From NCBI RefSeq assembly GCF_004799685.1, contig NZ_CP031312.1:186001-250000 (forward strand): a DNA stretch of 64,000 nt. The letters are read 5' to 3'. The number at the start of each line of letters is the position of its first letter. The first letter of the stretch is position 1. The notes under the pieces are model-generated. The model saw nothing but the letters and a program-made list of their open reading frames with translations, did no database searches and was not told the origin of the DNA. A program made the position numbers and the translations under genes. Below are positions 3,644-51,486 of the stretch, piece by piece. This stretch comes from Halobellus limi. GTDB lineage: Archaea > Halobacteriota > Halobacteria > Halobacteriales > Haloferacaceae.

Positions 3644-4237
3644 TCACGCGTCCGCAGCGGGCGCTTCCGAATCCGCGATCGATCGGCAGAAGTTCTCGAC
3701 GATCCGCTTGCCGGCGTCGGTGAGGATGCTCTCGGGGTGGAACTGGACGCCGTAGTGGGGCTTCTCGACGTGTTCGACGCCCATCACGACGCCCTGCTCG
3801 TCGTCGGTCACGGCCGTCTCGACGAGCACGTCCGGGATGTGCCCCGGTTCGACCGCCAGCGAGTGGTACCGGCCGACCTCGAAGGGGTTCTCGACGCCGT
3901 CGTACAGTCGGCTGCCGTCGTGTCGGACGACGGAGGGCTTCCCGTGGACGACCTCCGGAGCGTGACCCACGGGCGCGCCGTGGGCGGCGCAAAGCGCCTG
4001 GTGCCCGAGACAGACCCCGAGAGCGGGGAGGTCGGTCTCGGCGAAGATGTCCATCGAGACACCGGCGTCCTGGGGGGTTCCCGGTCCGGGCGAGACCACG
4101 ATGCCGTCGGGGTCGAGATCGCGGACGTCGTCGACGTCGACCGCGTCGTTCCGTCGAACGATCACGTCGTCGAACTCGCCGACGTACTGGACGAGGTTGT
4201 ACGCGAAGGAGTCGTAGTTGTCGACGATGAGGATCAA
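3644..4237 (-). CDS. trpG: Anthranilate synthase component II (glutamine amidotransferase)
   Basis: A 197-residue class I glutamine amidotransferase that supplies ammonia to TrpE for anthranilate formation from chorismate. Catalytic residues are visible: Cys76 in GVCLGHQ, and His167 and Glu169 in QFHPES. The SPGPGTP loop near residue 49 is the oxyanion region. The start is a TTG codon whose last two bases, with the next A, form the trpE stop (TTGA, 4-base overlap), which indicates translational coupling. An internal ATG start would remove the first beta strand, so TTG is preferred. Unlike the trpDFEG operons known in some haloarchaea, only trpE and trpG are present here. Confidence 0.93.
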
Positions 4238-5865
4238 GGCTGGTCCTCCGCTTCGACGGCCCGTGGGTCCTCCTGAGCGCCGTCGGGACCCACCTCGGTC
4301 CCGGTTTCGACCGCGAACGACGCCCGTTCGCCGAGCGCCTCGTCGACCGCGTTGATGAGTGCACGGGCCTTATCGAGCGTCTCCTGGTACTCCTCGGACG
4401 GGACCGAGTCGTGGACGATACCGGCACCGACGCGGAGTCGGTACTCGTCGCCGCGGCGGACCAGCGTCCGGATGACGATGTTGAGCGTCGCCCGGTCGTC
4501 GAAGCCGAAGATCCCGATACTCCCCGTGTACGGGCCCCGTCGCGTCCGCTCGACTTCGTCGATGATTTCCATCGTGCGCGGCTTCGGCGCGCCGGTGATC
4601 GTCCCGCCCGGGAACACGGCGGCGACCGCGTCGGCGACCGTCGTCCCCGCGCGTCGAGTCCCCTCGACGAGCGAGACCAGGTGCATCACCTCCGAGTAGC
4701 GGTCGACGCGACGGTACTCCGAGACGTCGACCGTCCCGTACTCGCTGACTTTCCCCAGATCGTTGCGTTCGAGGTCCACGAGCATCGCGTGTTCGGCACG
4801 TTCCTTCTCGTCTGCGAGCAGGTCCGCCTCGAGTTCTGCGTCGGCCTCGGGCGTGTCGCCGCGCGGGCGCGTCCCCGCGATGGGTTCGGTGAGCAGGCGG
4901 TCGCCGTCGACCTCCAAGAGCAGTTCCGGGCTCGCGCTCACCAGGTCGATGCCCGGGAACTCCAAGAGTCCGGAGTACGGCGCGGGGTTGACGCGTCGAA
5001 CCGCGTCGAACGCCTGGATCGGGTGGACGGCCGCCGGGGCGACGAGTCTGTGAGAGACGTTCGTCTGGAAGGTGTCGCCGTCTCGGATGTACCGCTTGAT
5101 CGTTCGAACGCGCTCGGCGAACTCGTCTTCGCCACACTCGCTCTCGAACGTGGCCCGGTCGGCGTCGACCGCTGGGGACGGCGTCGAGACCGGACCGGAA
5201 GCGGCGGATTCCGCCAGCGACGTTGCGCGGTCGAGGGCCGTGCGGTAGGTTTCTTCGGGAGACTCGTCCACGACTGGGCAGACCGTAATGCGGAGTTCGA
5301 TTCCGTCGGATTTCGGAGTACGACCGTCGGTTCCGGAAGTGGGCTCGTTCCGTGCCGCTCGGGGTTCCTGCCACGCGACCACGGCGTCGAACACGCCGAG
5401 TTGGAGCTGGGGGAGACCGTCGTTCTCCGTCGTATCGGGGAGCGATTCGAGTTCGCGCGCGACGTCGTAGGAGAGCCACCCGAACGCGCCGCAGGGGTAC
5501 GGAACGTCGCAGTCGCCGCGGACGAGGCGCTCGCGGTCGAGCAACGAGTCGATGGCCTCCAGCGTCGGTGTGGCACTCTCGGATCTCCCTGCCGACGCGT
5601 CTCCCGCGGATACGTCCGGATCTACTGCCGAATTCGGAACAGATACGTGTTCGACCGGGTCGACGGCGAAGTACCCCCAGCCGGACTGCCCGCCTGTCGT
5701 TTCGAGATACACGCCGTCTTCGTCTTCCGTTCGTACGCGTCGATACGCCTCGAAAGGGTCCTGAACGACGGTTCTAACCTCGACGGGGATTCGTACCCCC
5801 ACCGGTTCCGACGCCGCAGTCTCAACGAATTCGTCTCGCTGGGTTATGACCGTTATTTCGCTCAT
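4234..5865 (-). CDS. trpE: Anthranilate synthase component I
   Basis: A 543-residue chorismate-binding enzyme that makes anthranilate, the first committed step of tryptophan synthesis. The C-terminal half holds conserved blocks [23 protein letters not shown] and [20 protein letters not shown]-type sequence (family signature), so the active site looks intact. The open frame could begin at 5940, but the ATG at 5865 ([13 protein letters not shown]) matches the normal family N-terminus, and the extra 25 residues have no domain character. It overlaps trpG by 4 bases. An Asp-rich insertion between the N-terminal and catalytic parts is a typical haloarchaeal loop. Confidence 0.93.
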
Positions 5866-6251
5866 CTGATACGATTTGCTCCCGCCGAAACCACTCTGTG
5901 GCTCAGCGCTATCGATCGCATCTGGGTCGGGAGCGGGCAAAAACCTTGCGCGAAGTGGGGAATGCTGCCGCTTCGAGGGGGGACAGCTTTACTCCAATTA
6001 CAGATCTTCGGTGACGGTCGGAGACGACACGAGGTGAGTAATACTATTTGTGATAGTCGTGTGATAATACGGGTGAGTGTATATGAAATCTGTGTGACGA
6101 TACTGGATCCACCGATCGTGATCGGGGATTTCTCCGCCCGGTCGAAAGCGGCCGTATGCCGAGCGAGTGCGGCCGTGTGACTGAACGAGTGGAGGTACTC
6201 GTGGCTCGTGGGTTCGATGGCTCTTTGAGAACGCCACGTCCACCACAGGAC
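5866..6251. other. Divergent intergenic region between trpE and the glyoxalase-fold gene
   Basis: About 390 bases separate the two divergent starts. The stretch around 6040-6085 is AT-rich and holds a direct repeat of the type GTGATA-GTC/GTGATA-ATA. No clear TATA box sits at leaderless distance from either start, so the trpE transcript may have a long leader. I see no peptide rich in Trp codons that would suggest attenuation. Confidence 0.3.
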
Positions 6252-7116: not shown

Positions 7117-7261
7117 GCGCACCCGTCGAACGGGCGCATCGAGGACGCCGATCTCGGGATCACTGTTTTCGTCGGCGGGACTTTCGTTCTTCGTCGAAGT
7201 TCGTCGAAATAGCTGCGAGAGTATGCGACGAGAGGTCCACGGATGTACCGATGACCCCTCC

Positions 7262-7881
7262 CCCTCCACTATGTCCGCTGTTCTAGGGTCCACGGTGTCA
7301 CACCCGGGATACGTCGTGGTTGCGCGGATACGTCGTGGCCGGAACCACCGATTCGATCAGTCCGAAATTGTGGCGGCTCACCTCGATCGCGAGTTACGAC
7401 CTCGGAAGGAACTCGCACTCCGTCGGACGCGACTCCCACACCACCTCGTCCGCTGTTCACACACAAACCGTCGAATACGGCCTCTGTAGCCGCTCTCCCA
7501 CTAGCGGTTCCGTGAAGTCGGATCTGTATCACTCCACGATGTCCGCTGTTACCGTCCTCGTCGGCAAGTCACTATTCGAATAATACTAGCGACGAGAGGA
7601 CAGTACTAGCGATGGGAGAGCAGTTCCCCCTCCCCCCCTCCACTATGTCCGCAGTTCCTGGGGAGAACGGAGGGCCTCATCTCCGCGAATGATTAGAAAG
7701 CACGAAGTGAGAAGTCAAGAATACCTGGTCAAAGTAGCCGTTTCAGGGCCTGATAGTGCAGAATAGAGAATATGGAAGTGGAGCTACTGTTAATTTCTCG
7801 TGCATCACTCGGAACCGTTTTGGAAAAACATCCGGGGAATGACGACGCTCGGAACGGTCACCACAATGTCCGCTGTTTCGG
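7262..7881 (+). repeat. Left-side origin recognition boxes (five copies, forward)
   Basis: Five copies of a box with consensus CACTATGTCCGCTGTT lie at 7262-7288, 7442-7460 (degenerate), 7532-7552, 7632-7663 and 7859-7881, all reading forward. Two have a C-rich run on the left flank (seven C at 7632-7638), equivalent to the G-string of archaeal ORB elements. They face the AT-rich core at 7985-8095. Between them lie small direct duplications, for example around 7308-7344 and 7583-7625. This layout matches archaeal origins bound by Orc1/Cdc6. Confidence 0.8.
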
Positions 7882-7984
7882 CGTTCCTCCCACTACTCGC
7901 TGAAGCTCGTTTCGGAAGCGATCAAACCCTCGGCTAGATGACTGGTTCGAATGACTGATTCGAATGACCGACGAGACTACGATA

Positions 7985-8095
7985 CACGAGACTGGTTTGT
8001 TAATTTAAACCAGTCATATTTTAATTTTAGTTTGTGCTACGGACCAATAAAACTGTATTAGATATAAACTTTTCTGTTTCAATAGGTCCACGACC
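7985..8095. other. AT-rich core of a replication origin (candidate DNA unwinding element)
   Basis: A strongly AT-rich stretch in GC-rich surroundings lies between forward boxes on the left and inverted boxes on the right. It contains a perfect 9-bp inverted repeat with an 8-base spacer at 7990-8015 (GACTGGTTT...AAACCAGTC). The orc1/cdc6 gene starts 144 bases to the right. In haloarchaea, an AT-rich unwinding element flanked by inverted ORBs beside an orc gene is the standard origin structure. Confidence 0.78.
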
Positions 8096-8123
8096 AACTC
8101 ACAGGCCCCACCGTAATATACCG

Positions 8124-8205
8124 ACAACAGCGGACATAGTGGAGGGGGGGTGTGATCCGGGCTACTTATAATAGACCAGAACAGCGGACACTGCGGACAC
8201 GGTGG
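8124..8205 (-). repeat. Right-side origin recognition boxes (two copies, inverted)
   Basis: Two boxes read on the minus strand at 8124-8150 and 8176-8205, each with the core AACAGCGGACA. The first is followed by a seven-G run, the G-string at the far side from the core. The second carries a partial internal duplication (GCGGACACTGCGGACAC). They mirror the left-side boxes around the AT-rich core and sit directly before the orc gene promoter, so initiator binding here could also repress orc transcription. Confidence 0.78.
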
Positions 8206-8240
8206 TTTTATTAATCAGCTGTTCTATACGACAGTCGTAT
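8206..8240 (+). promoter_or_regulatory. orc promoter and start-codon palindrome
   Basis: A TATA-like TTTTATTAA (8206-8214) lies 25 bases before the ATG at 8239, so the transcript is probably leaderless. A perfect 15-base palindrome ATACGACAGTCGTAT (8226-8240) covers the transcription start and the first two bases of the start codon, a position where a bound protein would block initiation. Confidence 0.55.
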
Positions 8241-9498
8241 GGTCCTCTTCGAGCGGGACAACGAGATCTATCGTGATCGCGACGCCTTGCGGGAGGACTA
8301 CCAGCCCGAGGAGCTCGTCGGCCGCGATGAAGAACTCCAGACGTATCAGGCAGCGCTCCAACCCGTGATAAACGGAGAGCAGCCGAACAACATCTTCCTG
8401 TACGGCAAGACGGGCGTGGGAAAGACGGCCGCGACGAAGTACCTGCTCGCTCACCTCCGTGAAGACGCCGCACAGTACGACGACATCGATCTCACGGTGA
8501 TCTTCCTCAACTGCGACGGTCTGACGAGCTCGTACCAGATCGCGACCCGTCTCGTCAACGATCTCCGCTCGGAGGCCAACCAGATCTCGACCACCGGGTA
8601 TCCGCTGGCTTCGGTCTACGAGATGCTGTGGGAGGACCTCGACGCGTGTGGGGGGACCGTGCTCGTCGTCCTCGACGAGATCGACCACGTGAACGACGAC
8701 AGCATCCTCTATCAACTCCCGCGAGCGCGTGCGAACGACGACCTGCAGGAGGCGAAGATCGGCCTGATCGGCATTTCCAACGACTTCTCGTTCCGAGACG
8801 ACCTCTCGCCGAAGGTGAAGAGTTCACTCTGTGAACAGGAGATCCACTTTCCCGCGTACAACGCCGAGAATCTCCGTGCGATCCTCGAACAGCGCGGCGA
8901 AGTCGCGTTCCACGACGACGTTCTCAGCGACGAGGTGATCCCGCTCTGTGCGGCCTACGGTGCGAAGGACGCCGGCGACGCGAGACAGTCGATCGACCTG
9001 TTGATGAAGGCCGGCGACCTCGCTCGCGACGAGGAGACCGACACCGTGACCGAAGAACACGTCCGTCGCGGTCGACGCGCACTGGAGCGGGGCCGCATCA
9101 AGGAGGGAATCAACGGTCTCACCGAACACGGCCACCTCGTCCTGTACGCGTTGTTGACTCTCGATCTCGAGGGCGAAGCGCCGGTCCGCTCCCGCGACGT
9201 CCGTCCGCGCTACACGCGGTTCGCCGAACTCGCCAACCGCGATCCGCTCGTGCCGCGACGGATGCGCGATCACCTGAGCGAACTCGCGATGCTCGGCATC
9301 GTCTCCGTCACCGAGCGCAACGAGGGCCGTCGCGGCGGGACCTACCGGGAGTACGCGCTCGATATGGACGTCGAACTCATCCTCTCTGCGATGGTCGAAA
9401 CGGTCGAACTCGTCGGTGTCCACGACTCTATCGCCCCGTACGTCGACGCCGAAGACGACGATGCGGCCCCGACGCTCCAGGACTTCTCCAACGTCTGA
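8239..9498 (+). CDS. Orc1/Cdc6-type replication initiator
   Basis: A 419-residue AAA+ ATPase of the archaeal Orc1/Cdc6 family. Walker A GKTGVGKTA is at 56-64 and Walker B LVVLDEID ends at residue 150. The C-terminal part (about 325-400) looks like the DNA-binding winged helix, with basic stretches near RYTRFAELANRDPLVPRRMRDHL. Such proteins bind origin boxes and load the MCM helicase. Its own set of boxes lies on both sides of the gene, which suggests a dedicated initiator-origin pair. Haloarchaea usually carry several orc genes; which paralogue this is cannot be told here. Confidence 0.93.
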   Translation: MVLFERDNEIYRDRDALREDYQPEELVGRDEELQTYQAALQPVINGEQPNNIFLYGKTGVGKTAATKYLLAHLREDAAQYDDIDLTVIFLNCDGLTSSYQIATRLVNDLRSEANQISTTGYPLASVYEMLWEDLDACGGTVLVVLDEIDHVNDDSILYQLPRARANDDLQEAKIGLIGISNDFSFRDDLSPKVKSSLCEQEIHFPAYNAENLRAILEQRGEVAFHDDVLSDEVIPLCAAYGAKDAGDARQSIDLLMKAGDLARDEETDTVTEEHVRRGRRALERGRIKEGINGLTEHGHLVLYALLTLDLEGEAPVRSRDVRPRYTRFAELANRDPLVPRRMRDHLSELAMLGIVSVTERNEGRRGGTYREYALDMDVELILSAMVETVELVGVHDSIAPYVDAEDDDAAPTLQDFSNV

Positions 9499-9667: not shown

Positions 9668-9871
9668 CACCACACCATCGTGTCCGCTGCTCCCCGCACG
9701 GAGTCGCCTTCTACGGTGCTCTTCTCATCCACTCGTCGCTATTTTCCACTCTGCCGCCACGATCCTGCCCCGACACACCACCGTGTCCGCTGTTCGACGT
9801 CGAACCCCACGATTGCTCCGGACATAGTGGTGTCCGATAGACTTCCTGACACCACTACGTCCGCTGTTTTG
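9668..9871. repeat. Second cluster of origin boxes downstream of orc
   Basis: Copies of the same box lie at 9668-9694 (+, ending GCTGCTC), 9774-9796 (+), 9816-9832 (-, half box) and 9849-9871 (+). The sequence between 9590 and 9690 also repeats CCAACAACCTGC-like units. The 9499-10054 gap has no credible gene and appears to be an origin-associated repeat field. There is no AT-rich core here comparable to 7985-8095. Confidence 0.65.
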
Positions 9872-11586: not shown

Positions 11587-11701
11587 CGCACCTGAATTGT
11601 TGTGAATGCCGACCGCACCTGAATTGTCGTGAACGCCAACGCAACTCCGAACATCCGCACTCTGAACCGCTCTCCTGCGTATTACAGCGGACACAGTGGT
11701 G
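11587..11701. repeat. 27-bp tandem repeat and a further inverted origin box
   Basis: Two 27-bp units (11587-11613 and 11614-11640, CGCACCTGAATTGT core) follow the phosphohexomutase gene. A minus-strand origin box, ACAGCGGACACAGTGG, lies at 11684-11699. With the 9.7-kb cluster, this box places the phosphohexomutase gene between origin repeats. Confidence 0.6.
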
Positions 11702-13014: not shown

Positions 13015-13148
13015 ACTACGGGTTAGACACAGACGAACGATTTCGTCCGTTCGGTCGGGTCGCTCCTTCGACGCCGACCCATCAACCACGACTCCGGTGG
13101 TGCGGGTCACGGATTTTGTGGCCCCTCCCAACGGCTTTCAACACATGT

Positions 13149-15068
13149 ATGAGCACTAACGACACGACGGATCCGATCGAAGCGGTCAGAGCGAAACTCG
13201 AAGACGAGATCCCCGACGACCTCGTCGTCTCCCGGGTCGCCTACGAGGGCCCCGAACTGGTCATCTACACCGAGACGCCGCGGGAGTTCGCCGAGCGCGA
13301 CGGCCTGATCCGCCGCCTCGCGAGCACGCTCCGCAAGCGGATCACGGTCCGTCCGGCGTCGGGCACCCAACTGAACCCCGCCGAGGCGAAGCCGAAAATC
13401 CTCGATCTGATCCCCGAGGAGGCCGGCATCACGAACCTCCAGTTCTACCCGGCGACCGGCGAAGTCCTCATCGAGGCCGAGAAACCCGGCCTCGTCATCG
13501 GCCGTCGCGCGAGCACTCTCCGGGAGATCACCCAGGAGGTGGGGTGGACCCCGGACGTCCTCCGGACCCCGCCGATGGAATCTTCGACCGTCGACAACGT
13601 GCGGAACTTCCTGATGCAGGAGCGGGACGACCGACGGGACTTCCTCGAACGCGTCGGCCAGCGGATCCACCGCGAACAGACCGGCGAGACCGACTGGGTC
13701 CGCGTGACCACGCTGGGTTGCTGTCGGGAGGTCGGGCGCGCGAGCTTCGTTCTCAGCACGCCCGAGACGCGGGTGCTCATCGACTGCGGCGACAAACCCG
13801 GCGCCGAGGGCGAGGTCCCGTACCTCCAGGTCCCGGAAGCGAACCCGATCGCCGACCTCGACGCCGTCGTGTTGACGCACGCGCACCTGGACCACAGCGC
13901 GCTCCTGCCGCTGCTCTTCAAGTACGGCTACGACGGCCCGGTCTACACGACCGAGCCCACCCGCGACCTGATGGGGCTGCTCCAACTCGACTACCTCGAC
14001 GTCGCCGCCAAGGAGGGTCGGACGCCGCCCTACGAGTCCGAGATGGTCCGCGAGGAGCTCAAACACACGATCACGCTGGACTACGGCGACGTCACCGACA
14101 TCGCGCCCGACATCAAGCTCACCTTCCACAACGCCGGGCACATCCTCGGCAGCGCCGTCGCGCACTTCCACATCGGCGACGGCTTCCACAACGTCGTCTT
14201 CTCCGGCGACATCCACTACGACGACACGCGCCTGTTCAACGGCGCGTCGAACGACTTCCCGCGGGTCGAATCGCTCGTGATGGAATCGACGTACGGACGT
14301 CGCGACGACTACCAGACCGACCAGGCGGACTCCGAGCGGAAGCTGATCGAACTCATTCAGGAGACCTACGACCGCGACGGGAAGGTCGTCATCCCCGCCT
14401 TCGCGGTCGGCCGCTCCCAGGAGCTGATGCTCGTCCTCGAGGAGGCGATGCGGGAGGGCAAGCTCCCGACGATGCCGATCTACCTCGACGGGATGATCCG
14501 CGAGGCGACCGCGATCCACACCGCCTACCCCGAGTTCCTCCGTGACGGACTCAGAGACCGCATCCTCCACGAGGACCAGAACCCATTCCTCGCCGAGCAG
14601 TTCCAGCAGGTCGACGGCGGCCAGGAGATGCGCGAGGAGGTCGCCGGCGGCGAGCCCTGTATCATCCTCTCGACCTCGGGGATGGTCACCGGCGGGCCGA
14701 TTATGTCGTGGCTCGAACTCCTCGGCAGCGACGAGGAGAACCAGCTCATCTTCGTCGGCTACCAGGCCCAGGGGACGCTGGGGAGACGTATCCAGAGCGG
14801 TCGACGTGAGATTCCGTTCAGCGACCGCGGCGGCCGTTCGGAGCAGCTGACGCTCCGTTTCGACGTCGAGTCCGTGAGCGGCTTCTCGGGGCACGCCGAC
14901 CGCAACGGCCTCGAAAACTTCGTCGGGACGATGAACCCCCGGCCCGAGGAGATCATCTGCGTCCACGGCGACGAGGCCTCGACGGACCAGCTCTCTTCGG
15001 GGCTCTATCAGAAGTACGACGTCCGGACGTACGCGCCGCGCAACCTCGAGACGTTCCGGTTCGACTGA
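13149..15068 (+). CDS. aCPSF1: KH-domain beta-CASP ribonuclease and transcription termination factor
   Basis: A 639-residue protein of the archaeal CPSF73-like family (aCPSF1, also called FttA). It has N-terminal KH domains (about 1-150, with the GITNLQFYPATGEVLIEAEK block), then a metallo-beta-lactamase core with HAHLDH at 244-249, a beta-CASP insert and a C-terminal HADRNGL motif. Family members cleave RNA at U-rich 3' ends and act as the general termination factor with the archaeal polymerase. The ATG at 13149 is preferred over 13116 because MSTNDTTD is a typical N-terminus. All catalytic motifs look intact. Confidence 0.94.
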   Translation: MSTNDTTDPIEAVRAKLEDEIPDDLVVSRVAYEGPELVIYTETPREFAERDGLIRRLASTLRKRITVRPASGTQLNPAEAKPKILDLIPEEAGITNLQFYPATGEVLIEAEKPGLVIGRRASTLREITQEVGWTPDVLRTPPMESSTVDNVRNFLMQERDDRRDFLERVGQRIHREQTGETDWVRVTTLGCCREVGRASFVLSTPETRVLIDCGDKPGAEGEVPYLQVPEANPIADLDAVVLTHAHLDHSALLPLLFKYGYDGPVYTTEPTRDLMGLLQLDYLDVAAKEGRTPPYESEMVREELKHTITLDYGDVTDIAPDIKLTFHNAGHILGSAVAHFHIGDGFHNVVFSGDIHYDDTRLFNGASNDFPRVESLVMESTYGRRDDYQTDQADSERKLIELIQETYDRDGKVVIPAFAVGRSQELMLVLEEAMREGKLPTMPIYLDGMIREATAIHTAYPEFLRDGLRDRILHEDQNPFLAEQFQQVDGGQEMREEVAGGEPCIILSTSGMVTGGPIMSWLELLGSDEENQLIFVGYQAQGTLGRRIQSGRREIPFSDRGGRSEQLTLRFDVESVSGFSGHADRNGLENFVGTMNPRPEEIICVHGDEASTDQLSSGLYQKYDVRTYAPRNLETFRFD

Positions 15069-35253: not shown

Positions 35254-35331
35254 GTGGCCAGGCCGCCGAAATCGAGTCGCTCTCGAACGAACCCCGATTT
35301 TGACGGCTCTGGAAACCGGAACGGTTATTTA

Positions 35332-35351
35332 TTTTTAGGCTAGCCTAAAAA
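35332..35351. promoter_or_regulatory. Iron box overlapping the start of the binding-protein operon
   Basis: A perfect 20-base palindrome with core TTAGGCTAGCCTAA (35335-35348) ends two bases before the ATG at 35353. A TATA-like TTATTTATTT lies immediately upstream (35325-35334). A bound iron repressor would occlude promoter and start together. The core differs from the metal-importer operator (23115-23128) only in one symmetric base pair. Confidence 0.82.
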
Positions 35352-35352
35352 T

Positions 35353-36570
35353 ATGGCGGGCGATTCCAGCGACCACGAGGCACCGACGCGGCGCGACTAT
35401 CTGAAGTACGGCGGGGCAGTCGTCGGCGGGGGACTGCTCGCCGGGTGTACCGGGAGTTCGGACGGGAGTTCGACGCCCGAAGGCACCCCGACAGGGACGG
35501 GGGCGGCAAACGAGACGAAGACGGAGACCGCGACCGGGGACACCAGTTACTCGGTGACGATGGCACCGATGGGCGAGGTCGAGTTCGAGTCCGTCCCCGA
35601 GGAGTGGATGGCGTATTTCAGCACGTACGGCGATATAGGCGTCGCGCTCGGCCAACTCGACGGCCTCCGGGGGCTGATATTCACCGAGAACTGGCCGCTC
35701 GCGTTCTTCGAGCACCTCCCGGACGTCGAGGTCTCCTTCGAGGACGTCGCCCAGCTTATGGGCGACGGCGGGATCGACAAGGAGTCGTTCTACGAACTGG
35801 ACGCCGACGTGCACCTGATGGACCCGAATTTCATCAGTCTCCTCGACGACAACTGGGGGGAGGACGATTACGAGGAGATCGCGACCAACGTCGGACCCGT
35901 CATCGGCAACTCCATCCGTCGCCGCGGCGAGGACTGGCACGACTACTCCTACTACTCGCTGTATGAGGCCTTCGGGCGGATCGCCGACGTCTTCGACGAA
36001 CGCGAGCGATACGAGGCGCTCAAAGCGGTTCACGACGGCCTGATCTCGGACGTACGGTCGAACCTCCCCGATGAGGAGGACCGGCCGACCGTCGGGCTCC
36101 TGTCGATCAACTCGGACTTCGAGAACGGCTCGTTCTACGCGTACCCCGTCAACGACGGAAACGGCCACAAACAGTACAGGGACGTCGAAATGCGCGGAGC
36201 GTTCGACGACGCCATCGAGGGCGGCTACGCTCGGTGGGACTACGAGCAGATACTCGACGTCGACCCCGACGCGCTGCTGTTCCAGTACGGTTTCTCGCAC
36301 GTCTCGACCGAGGAGTTCGAGCGGCGAATGGACGCTATGCGTTCGGACCCGGTCGGCCAGCAGCTGACCGCGGTTCGGAACGACCGCCTCTACCGCGGTG
36401 GGACGTCGTATCAGGGGCCCCTGATCAACCTCTTCCAGACGGAGGCGGCCGCCAAGCAGTTCTACCCGGACGCCTTCGGGGAGTGGAACGGGATCGAGAC
36501 GCTGTCGAACCCGGACGACCGCCTGTTCGACTACCAGCGCGTCTCTGACATCGTCACCGGAGATTTCTAA
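35353..36570 (+). CDS. Ferric-siderophore binding lipoprotein 1
   Basis: A 405-residue periplasmic-binding-protein-like (FepB/FhuD class) protein. The N-terminus carries a twin-arginine motif (TRRDYLKYGG) and a lipobox LLAGC at about residue 34, then a Thr/Gly-rich linker, so Tat export and lipid anchoring are expected. The mature part shows two lobes, with IALGQLDGLRGLI and DVHLMDPNFIS blocks and a C-terminal VRNDRLYRGGTSYQGPLINLFQTEAAAKQFYP typical of the class. Iron starvation should induce it through the overlapping iron box. Its paralogue follows after two bases. Confidence 0.88.
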   Translation: MAGDSSDHEAPTRRDYLKYGGAVVGGGLLAGCTGSSDGSSTPEGTPTGTGAANETKTETATGDTSYSVTMAPMGEVEFESVPEEWMAYFSTYGDIGVALGQLDGLRGLIFTENWPLAFFEHLPDVEVSFEDVAQLMGDGGIDKESFYELDADVHLMDPNFISLLDDNWGEDDYEEIATNVGPVIGNSIRRRGEDWHDYSYYSLYEAFGRIADVFDERERYEALKAVHDGLISDVRSNLPDEEDRPTVGLLSINSDFENGSFYAYPVNDGNGHKQYRDVEMRGAFDDAIEGGYARWDYEQILDVDPDALLFQYGFSHVSTEEFERRMDAMRSDPVGQQLTAVRNDRLYRGGTSYQGPLINLFQTEAAAKQFYPDAFGEWNGIETLSNPDDRLFDYQRVSDIVTGDF

Positions 36571-50532: not shown

Positions 50533-50748
50533 TCAGACGTCGACGACGGGGTTCTGCATCGCTCCGACGACGTCGACGACGGGGTTCTGCATCGCTCCGA
50601 CGACGTCGACGACGGGTTTCTGAATCGCTCAGACGACGTCGACGACGGGTTTCTGAATCGCTCAGACGACGTCGACGACGGGTTTCTGAATCGCTCAGAC
50701 GACGTCGACGACGGGTTTCTGAATCGCTCAGACGACGTCGACGACGGG
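50533..50748 (-). repeat. 33-bp tandem repeats spanning the yqeC stop
   Basis: Six units beyond the gene begin at 50533, 50563, 50596, 50629, 50662 and 50695, next to the gene's own end at 50728. The period is 33 bases, except 30 in the most distal one. On the minus strand each unit encodes PVVDVV then stop or Gly, followed by AIQK or AMQN. The units at 50629, 50662 and 50695 keep TGA. In the two more distal units (50563 and 50596) the stop has become a glycine codon. Confidence 0.85.
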
Positions 50749-51486
50749 ATCGTCCGCGCGCATCTCCGCGAGGACGACCCGCGGGACGTCCGCGCGCTCG
50801 TGGATCTCGCCTGCGACCTCCCGGGCCGTCGCTTCGAGGTCGGCGTCGTCGACCATGTTGAGCAACGGGATCGGCGTCGCGTCCCGGGGGACGTCCTTGA
50901 GACCGCCGCGGTCGCTCGCGAGCACCTCGGCGACGTCCGCCGCTCCGATCGTTTCGCCGGGCTCCAGCCCCGTGAGTTTCGACACCTCGTCGACCCGGTG
51001 CACGAGCGACTCCGAGAGCGGTTCGCCGACCACGTGGACGCTCGCGATCGACACCACCGTGTCCGCTGTTCTGGGGAGCCGCGGCTCCCACTTGTCGGGC
51101 GCTTTGAAGCGCCGCATCCGGGCGCCGTCGGCCTTCACGAGGACGGGCACGTCCAACTCGCCGAGCGCGTCGACGACGTCCGGCTCGTACCCCCGATACC
51201 GATCCTCGCGCTCCCGCTCGGGGACGAGACCGAGCGGCCACCCGCCGGCCGCCGTTCCGTCCGGCCGGGTCGCGGGGGCCGCCAGTCGCTCGCGGGCTAT
51301 GTCGACCGGCTCGTCGGTGACGACGACTCCGTCCACCCACTCGTCGAAGATCGGAATCCGAACCGTCGCGGTGACGATCGCCCGATCGAGCCGCGTGGCG
51401 AGCGCTTCGAGGGTCGTCTTCTTGCCGCCGGCACCGACCACGCAGGTCGTCCCGGCGTCGGCGTTCAGCGCAGCAACGAGATCCAT
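50728..51486 (-). CDS. yqeC: YqeC-like selenium/molybdenum-hydroxylase maturation protein
   Basis: A 252-residue P-loop-like protein. VVGAGGKKTTLEALA (16-30) is the characteristic YqeC nucleotide-binding start, and VLVKADGARMRRFKAP is the second conserved block. YqeC occurs with selenium-dependent molybdenum hydroxylases in bacteria. Most haloarchaea are not known for selenium use, so it may serve molybdenum hydroxylase maturation without Se. An exact origin-box sequence lies within its coding region at 51051-51076. The end is marked by many tandem copies. Confidence 0.8.
   Translation of the reverse strand: MDLVAALNADAGTTCVVGAGGKKTTLEALATRLDRAIVTATVRIPIFDEWVDGVVVTDEPVDIARERLAAPATRPDGTAAGGWPLGLVPEREREDRYRGYEPDVVDALGELDVPVLVKADGARMRRFKAPDKWEPRLPRTADTVVSIASVHVVGEPLSESLVHRVDEVSKLTGLEPGETIGAADVAEVLASDRGGLKDVPRDATPIPLLNMVDDADLEATAREVAGEIHERADVPRVVLAEMRADDPVVDVV
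51051..51076 (+). repeat. Origin recognition box inside the yqeC coding sequence
   Basis: ACACCACCGTGTCCGCTGTTC is identical over 21 bases to the origin box at 9775-9795 and ends in CTGGGG. It lies about 41 kb from that copy. On the yqeC strand it encodes PRTADTVVS, so it is also constrained as coding sequence. No AT-rich core lies near it. Confidence 0.6.

Follow-up and report, generated by a model that had tools for sequence, protein, structure and literature searches.

We wanted to know whether a group of repeated boxes beside an orc1/cdc6 gene of Halobellus limi marks a replication origin and, if so, to which replicon and to which kind of initiator-origin pair it belongs. The 64-kb stretch of DNA that was analysed (the window) corresponds to C2:186001-250000, C2 being one of the four contigs of a 3.75-Mb genome. 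Directly upstream of the gene, five forward and two inverted boxes share the 11-mer core TGTCCGCTGTT (Table 1). The forward cores start at 7272, 7447, 7540, 7646 and 7867, those at 7447 and 7646 with one mismatch, and the inverted cores at 8126 and 8180, followed by a degenerate tandem copy at 8189. When one mismatch was allowed, 13 sites were found in the window, seven of them inside 7262-8240, against 0-3 in each of ten first-order Markov versions. A scan of the whole genome with the extended 19-bp box, again with at most one mismatch, returned 12 sites; all are on C2, and the ori/orc region accounts for 10. Between the forward and the inverted boxes the AT content peaks at 77% over 60 bp, at about 8014-8075. 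The layout described in a first-pass annotation, namely five forward and two inverted boxes with an AT-rich stretch and a 9-bp inverted repeat beside orc1/cdc6, was thus recovered with these coordinates and counts. The same annotation had placed C- or G-strings on the outer sides of the boxes. This holds for three of the seven (7272, 7646 and 8126), while the other four have CACCACNN-type flanks only. Absent from it were the tandem box at 8189, the downstream boxes at 9681, 9784, 9858 and 11683, the way the proximal box is fused to the promoter of orc, a leftward promoter-like element, and the recurrence of a hairpin in other Halobellus origins.

Table 1. Positions in the window of the features of the origin region and its initiator gene.
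Feature	Position	Strand	Details
Box F1	7264-7282	+	Exact core; C-string on outer side, about 7256-7268
Box F2	7439-7457	+	Core CGTCCGCTGTT
Box F3	7532-7550	+	Exact core
Box F4	7638-7656	+	Core TGTCCGCAGTT; C-string outside, about 7626-7640
Box F5	7859-7877	+	Exact core; innermost of the forward boxes
AT-rich stretch	7988-8090		Presumed duplex-unwinding element
Perfect 9-bp inverted repeat, spacer 8	7990-8015		GACTGGTTT-GTTAATTT-AAACCAGTC
Leftward promoter-like element	8038-8075	-	GAAAAG 8075-8070; TTTATA 8069-8064; CCGTA 8043-8039 (presumed start site)
Box R1	8126-8144	-	Exact core; G-string outside, 8144-8150; block near-invariant in aligned origins
Nearly invariant block linking R2/R3 to orc TATA	8179-8214	+	TATA TTTTATTAA at 8206-8214
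Box R2 and tandem degenerate R3	8180-8207	-	R2 exact core 8180-8190; R3 core 8189-8199
orc1/cdc6 initiator gene	8239-9498	+	419 aa; AAA+, Cdc6 lid, Cdc6_C winged helix
Downstream box D1	9673-9691	+	Core TGTCCGCTGCT (9681), 3' of orc
Downstream box D2	9776-9794	+	Exact core (9784), 3' of orc
Downstream box D3	9850-9868	+	Core CGTCCGCTGTT (9858), 3' of orc
Distal downstream box	11683-11701	-	Single box past orc

The region has the parts by which Wu et al. (2012) recognised haloarchaeal origins adjacent to orc genes: an orc1/cdc6 gene of more than 300 aa with AAA+ and winged-helix domains lies beside it, the forward and inverted boxes surround 7988-8090, and the G-string at the ORB end is present on three of the seven boxes. 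The Orc protein scored above cut-off with PF22703, PF09079 and TIGR02928. Its replicon, C2, is a 397,862-bp megaplasmid contig of a Halobellus closely related to H. rarus. When the two ends of C2 are joined, a complete 687-aa hydantoinase-type frame is formed, which overlaps the next ATG as ATGA. On the evidence of this one reading-frame junction, C2 is probably a finished circle. Twelve Cdc6_lid genes were detected genome-wide, and the orc gene described here is the only Orc gene found on C2. The cumulative GC skew of C2 peaks at C2:192,903 (window 6,903), a point 0.36 kb to the left of the first box, and is lowest at 355,493; its range exceeded that of 2-kb block permutations of C2 (p=0.0002). 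The best split of C2 into equal halves by GC skew fell at 159 kb, which does not coincide exactly with the origin. We consider it very probable that the locus is the replication origin of the circular 397,862-bp Halobellus megaplasmid, with a dedicated Orc initiator. Inspection of translations also revealed a trpE/trpG-like pair at 3644-5940 and a KH-domain beta-CASP nuclease of the aCPSF type at 13116-15068 of the window. Such genes are usually thought to be chromosomal.

Then, the distribution of the initiator was studied. An Orc orthologue was present at E<=1e-190 in 52 of the 170 genomes of the taxonomic family, and at 1e-150 in 8 of the 17 genomes of the genus. The main origin oriC1 was therefore rejected as an identity for this locus, since the orthologue is not universal and lies on a megaplasmid. 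This agrees with the first-pass annotation, in which the boxes were not recognised as those of oriC1; they form a family of their own, and the locus is best read as an Orc-dependent origin distinct from oriC1. Close Orc relatives comprised 25 loci of named genomes and occurred on dozens of complete megaplasmids, among them named ones of Haloferax, Halobaculum, Haloarcula and Natrinema. The H. limi Orc shares 99% identity with its counterpart in Halobellus rarus, 84.9% with that of Haloferax mediterranei, 85-91% with those of Haloferax and Halogeometricum members, and 72.8% with Cdc6K of Haloarcula hispanica pHH400. The same origin architecture was found in some 40 relatives. In those examined at the DNA level the shared plan consists of outer forward boxes, then an inverted box with a G-string and a double box, which precede the start codon by about 112-127 nt and about 58-74 nt, respectively. 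Halorussus, with an Orc 63% identical, has its box core altered to TTTCCGCTGTT, as would be expected if box and initiator co-evolve. The same Orc was also observed on a 1.95-Mb contig (locus L122, G030 C1) and in a single-contig 3.3-Mb genome (G083); contigs of this size suggest that the replicon has been integrated into the chromosome in these two species.

We compared the locus with origins already described. The oriP-cdc6K origin of H. hispanica pHH400, with its homologue on H. marismortui pNG700, carries the identical 11-mer core, as the same inverted TGTCCGCTGTT boxes around an AT-rich core. Further shared features are a double box at the TATA of orc, boxes beyond the end of that gene and a TACGG..TAAA element with 26-nt spacing, and pHH400 is likewise a megaplasmid of about 400 kb with a related Orc. 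It differs from the H. limi locus in Orc identity (73%), in its flanking genes and in having no strong core hairpin. The pHH400 oriP and cdc6K are described as essential and not deletable, the origin having been mapped by marker frequency and nucleotide disparity (PMC3936714), and ARS activity of oriP has been reported (PMC3528665). That identical boxes occur in a mapped oriP supports, by analogy, the reading of the H. limi boxes as origin boxes, for which the first-pass annotation had relied on layout. Its proposal of a specific initiator-origin pair is supported too, but the pair is not a new one, identical boxes being known beside the pHH400 initiator. Because the origin of pHH400 was mapped experimentally, an ordinary dedicated pair of an already known kind is a well-supported description of the H. 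limi locus.

At the threshold of at least 80% Orc identity given for one origin family (PMC3528665), the H. limi locus falls outside the strict oriP-cdc6K subfamily with 72.8%, despite the same ORB sequence, and inside the Haloferax megaplasmid family, of presumed cdc6M/orc3 type, with 84.9% and the same ORB sequence. The Haloferax megaplasmid origins share with it an Orc 85% identical, the same boxes, near-identical distances to the ATG (-112 and -58) and the leftward promoter-like element, but with a spacing of 27 instead of 26 nt. They differ in that their outer boxes have fewer G-strings, a strong hairpin is lacking and a ParA gene is adjacent. Two Orcs are encoded on H. mediterranei pHM500, one of which is the orthologue of the H. 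limi Orc. This one is 97.8% identical to an H. alexandrinus protein and has near relatives in other Haloferax plasmids, where none was found for the other. Given that cdc6M, at the mapped active origin of pHM500, is reported to share 98% identity with H. volcanii orc3 (PMC4595724), the orc gene of ori-pHV4 (PMC7776575), the orthologue appears by identity and distribution, not by locus tag, to be cdc6M (pHM500 oriP2-cdc6M; H. volcanii orc3). A further likeness, in the boxes, is with origin II of Halorubrum lacusprofundi (Hla_3512) and Haloquadratum walsbyi (HQ2959A), whose box TAACAGCGGAAACAGTGGGGTGGGGGGGT, published in 2012, is close to AACAGCGGACATAGTGGAGGGGGGG in H. limi; two box types stand at one orc gene in these loci. 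The box family and its initiator can be assigned to one replicon across many haloarchaeal genera, making the pairing of origin and initiator readable from sequence, and the locus is a likely shuttle-vector origin for Halobellus.

These comparisons also bear on whether the origin is used. Origins with full anatomy can be dormant in Haloarcula and Haloferax (PMC3528665, PMC4595724), such as the predicted oriC4 and oriC5 of H. hispanica (PMC3528665), and two relatives carry the orthologue on a very large contig (1.95 Mb in G030 C1, 3.3 Mb in G083). The H. limi locus might likewise be complete but silent or degenerate, the megaplasmid being replicated by another system or while integrated. We consider this very unlikely: the sole Orc found on C2 is encoded here, a GC-skew extremum lies at the locus, boxes and gene are intact in the relatives examined, and the pHH400 homologue is known to be active. 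We infer that the origin is active in H. limi.

Next to the gene, the block GAACAGCGGACACTSCGGACRCGGTGGTTTTAT, which connects the double box with the TATA box of orc, was almost invariant in aligned origins, and nearly all relatives have these two fused. Further boxes follow orc, and single ones occur at other places on the plasmids concerned; one located 1.9-2.2 kb past orc is present in four of the five other Halobellus loci listed. All this could indicate that the boxes serve chiefly as operators or for titration, acting on Orc's own gene or on copy number, with replication starting elsewhere. However, the inverted boxes surround an AT-rich core in the relatives as well, and the family contains mapped origins, making this reading highly implausible; autoregulation and origin function are moreover compatible. 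In the origin reading, Orc would bind the inverted boxes that flank the AT-rich stretch, with the winged helix contacting the box core and the AAA+ domain the G-string, and would recruit MCM for bidirectional replication from about 7.9-8.1 kb. Its binding to the double box that is joined to the TATA of orc (8179-8214) would probably regulate orc itself. A comparable cluster is oriC2D of H. hispanica, an ORB cluster downstream of oriC2-cdc6E reported to restrain oriC2, likely by titration; by analogy, the boxes downstream of the H. limi orc would probably titrate the initiator. The two differ in that oriC2D has 11 downstream boxes and lies on the main chromosome, versus three plus a distal one on the H. 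limi megaplasmid.

Two perfect box copies were found far from the origin, at window 51052-51070 in a yqeC-like gene, where the box encodes TADTVV, and at C2:272387 in an AMP/thymidine-phosphorylase-like gene. Since both are inside genes, they may have their source in coding constraint. The yqeC box occupies the same position in four other Halobellus contigs, with protein identity down to 72%, and could reflect either coding constraint or a DNA site. Between a mobA-like gene and this yqeC-like gene, window 50536-50748 contains six and a half near-perfect copies (98%) of the 33-bp repeat GACGTCGACGACGGGTTTCTGAATCGCTCAGAC. Exact single boxes were also seen far from the origin on the megaplasmid of Halobaculum lipolyticum, at 126636, 177561 and 249619, and are possible titration or partition sites. 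Dispersed single boxes might form a plasmid-wide system; the three Halobaculum copies are intergenic or at a gene end, and both H. limi copies are intragenic.

Finally, we looked at the AT-rich core. The inverted repeat at 7990-8015 is its longest stem (p=0.009). A hairpin was found at one position, left of the promoter-like element, in six of eight Halobellus origins. The H. rarus hairpin has the sequence of that in the window, and in the others the arms, 10-12 bp long, are unrelated in sequence (p 0.0007-0.03 each). Long stems occur at this position in two Natronorubrum origins. No strong core hairpin was found in the compared origins of Haloferax, Haloarcula or two Halobellus, and the idea that the palindrome is universal among these origins was therefore rejected. 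Neither strand was preferred in folding energy (mean z -0.86 and -0.89), so that the structure may be one of RNA or of DNA, and Rfam gave no match above threshold in the window.

The promoter-like element contains the half-box TACGGAC on the plus strand, and aligned origins of the family have TACGG...TAAA in common on this strand. ACGG and TAAA are 26 or 27 nt apart in 41 of 51 non-redundant loci, from Halobellus, Haloferax, Halogeometricum, Halobaculum, Natronorubrum and Haloarcula; the strict form occurs in 18 loci versus 0.1 expected, these loci being related by descent and the counts not independent events. The element has been retained in places where the core around it mostly no longer aligns. 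Its minus-strand form, GAAAG-n-TTTA(T)...CCGTA, points away from orc and is one that we take to resemble a haloarchaeal BRE/TATA promoter with a start about 26 nt downstream. The leftward neighbour gene was not conserved in the relatives' loci compared, so the element more probably serves the origin than a neighbouring gene; alternatively, the element is a weak internal Orc half-site.

We tentatively propose, as a possibility short of an even chance, that the unwinding region has a built-in leftward promoter (GAAAG-n-TTTAT, starting about 26 nt on at CCGTA and overlapping the half-box). A non-coding transcript would cross the AT-rich core, in Halobellus and Natronorubrum transcript or DNA would carry a hairpin at a fixed place with its sequence replaced, and transcription or structure would be part of origin opening or regulation. 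The ucm motif, a conserved and essential non-ORB motif of a Sulfolobus-group origin (PMC12141716), offers a precedent for extra origin elements and is not a homologue. No account of the leftward element or the core hairpin was found in the published passages searched, so that either may be new. Both are the parts of the locus worth an experiment, and a possible contribution to origin firing is testable in Haloferax mediterranei or H. volcanii. Elsewhere in the window, a perfect 24-bp palindrome, TATTTTTAGGCTAGCCTAAAAATA, was observed at 35330-35353 and is possibly a repressor operator.
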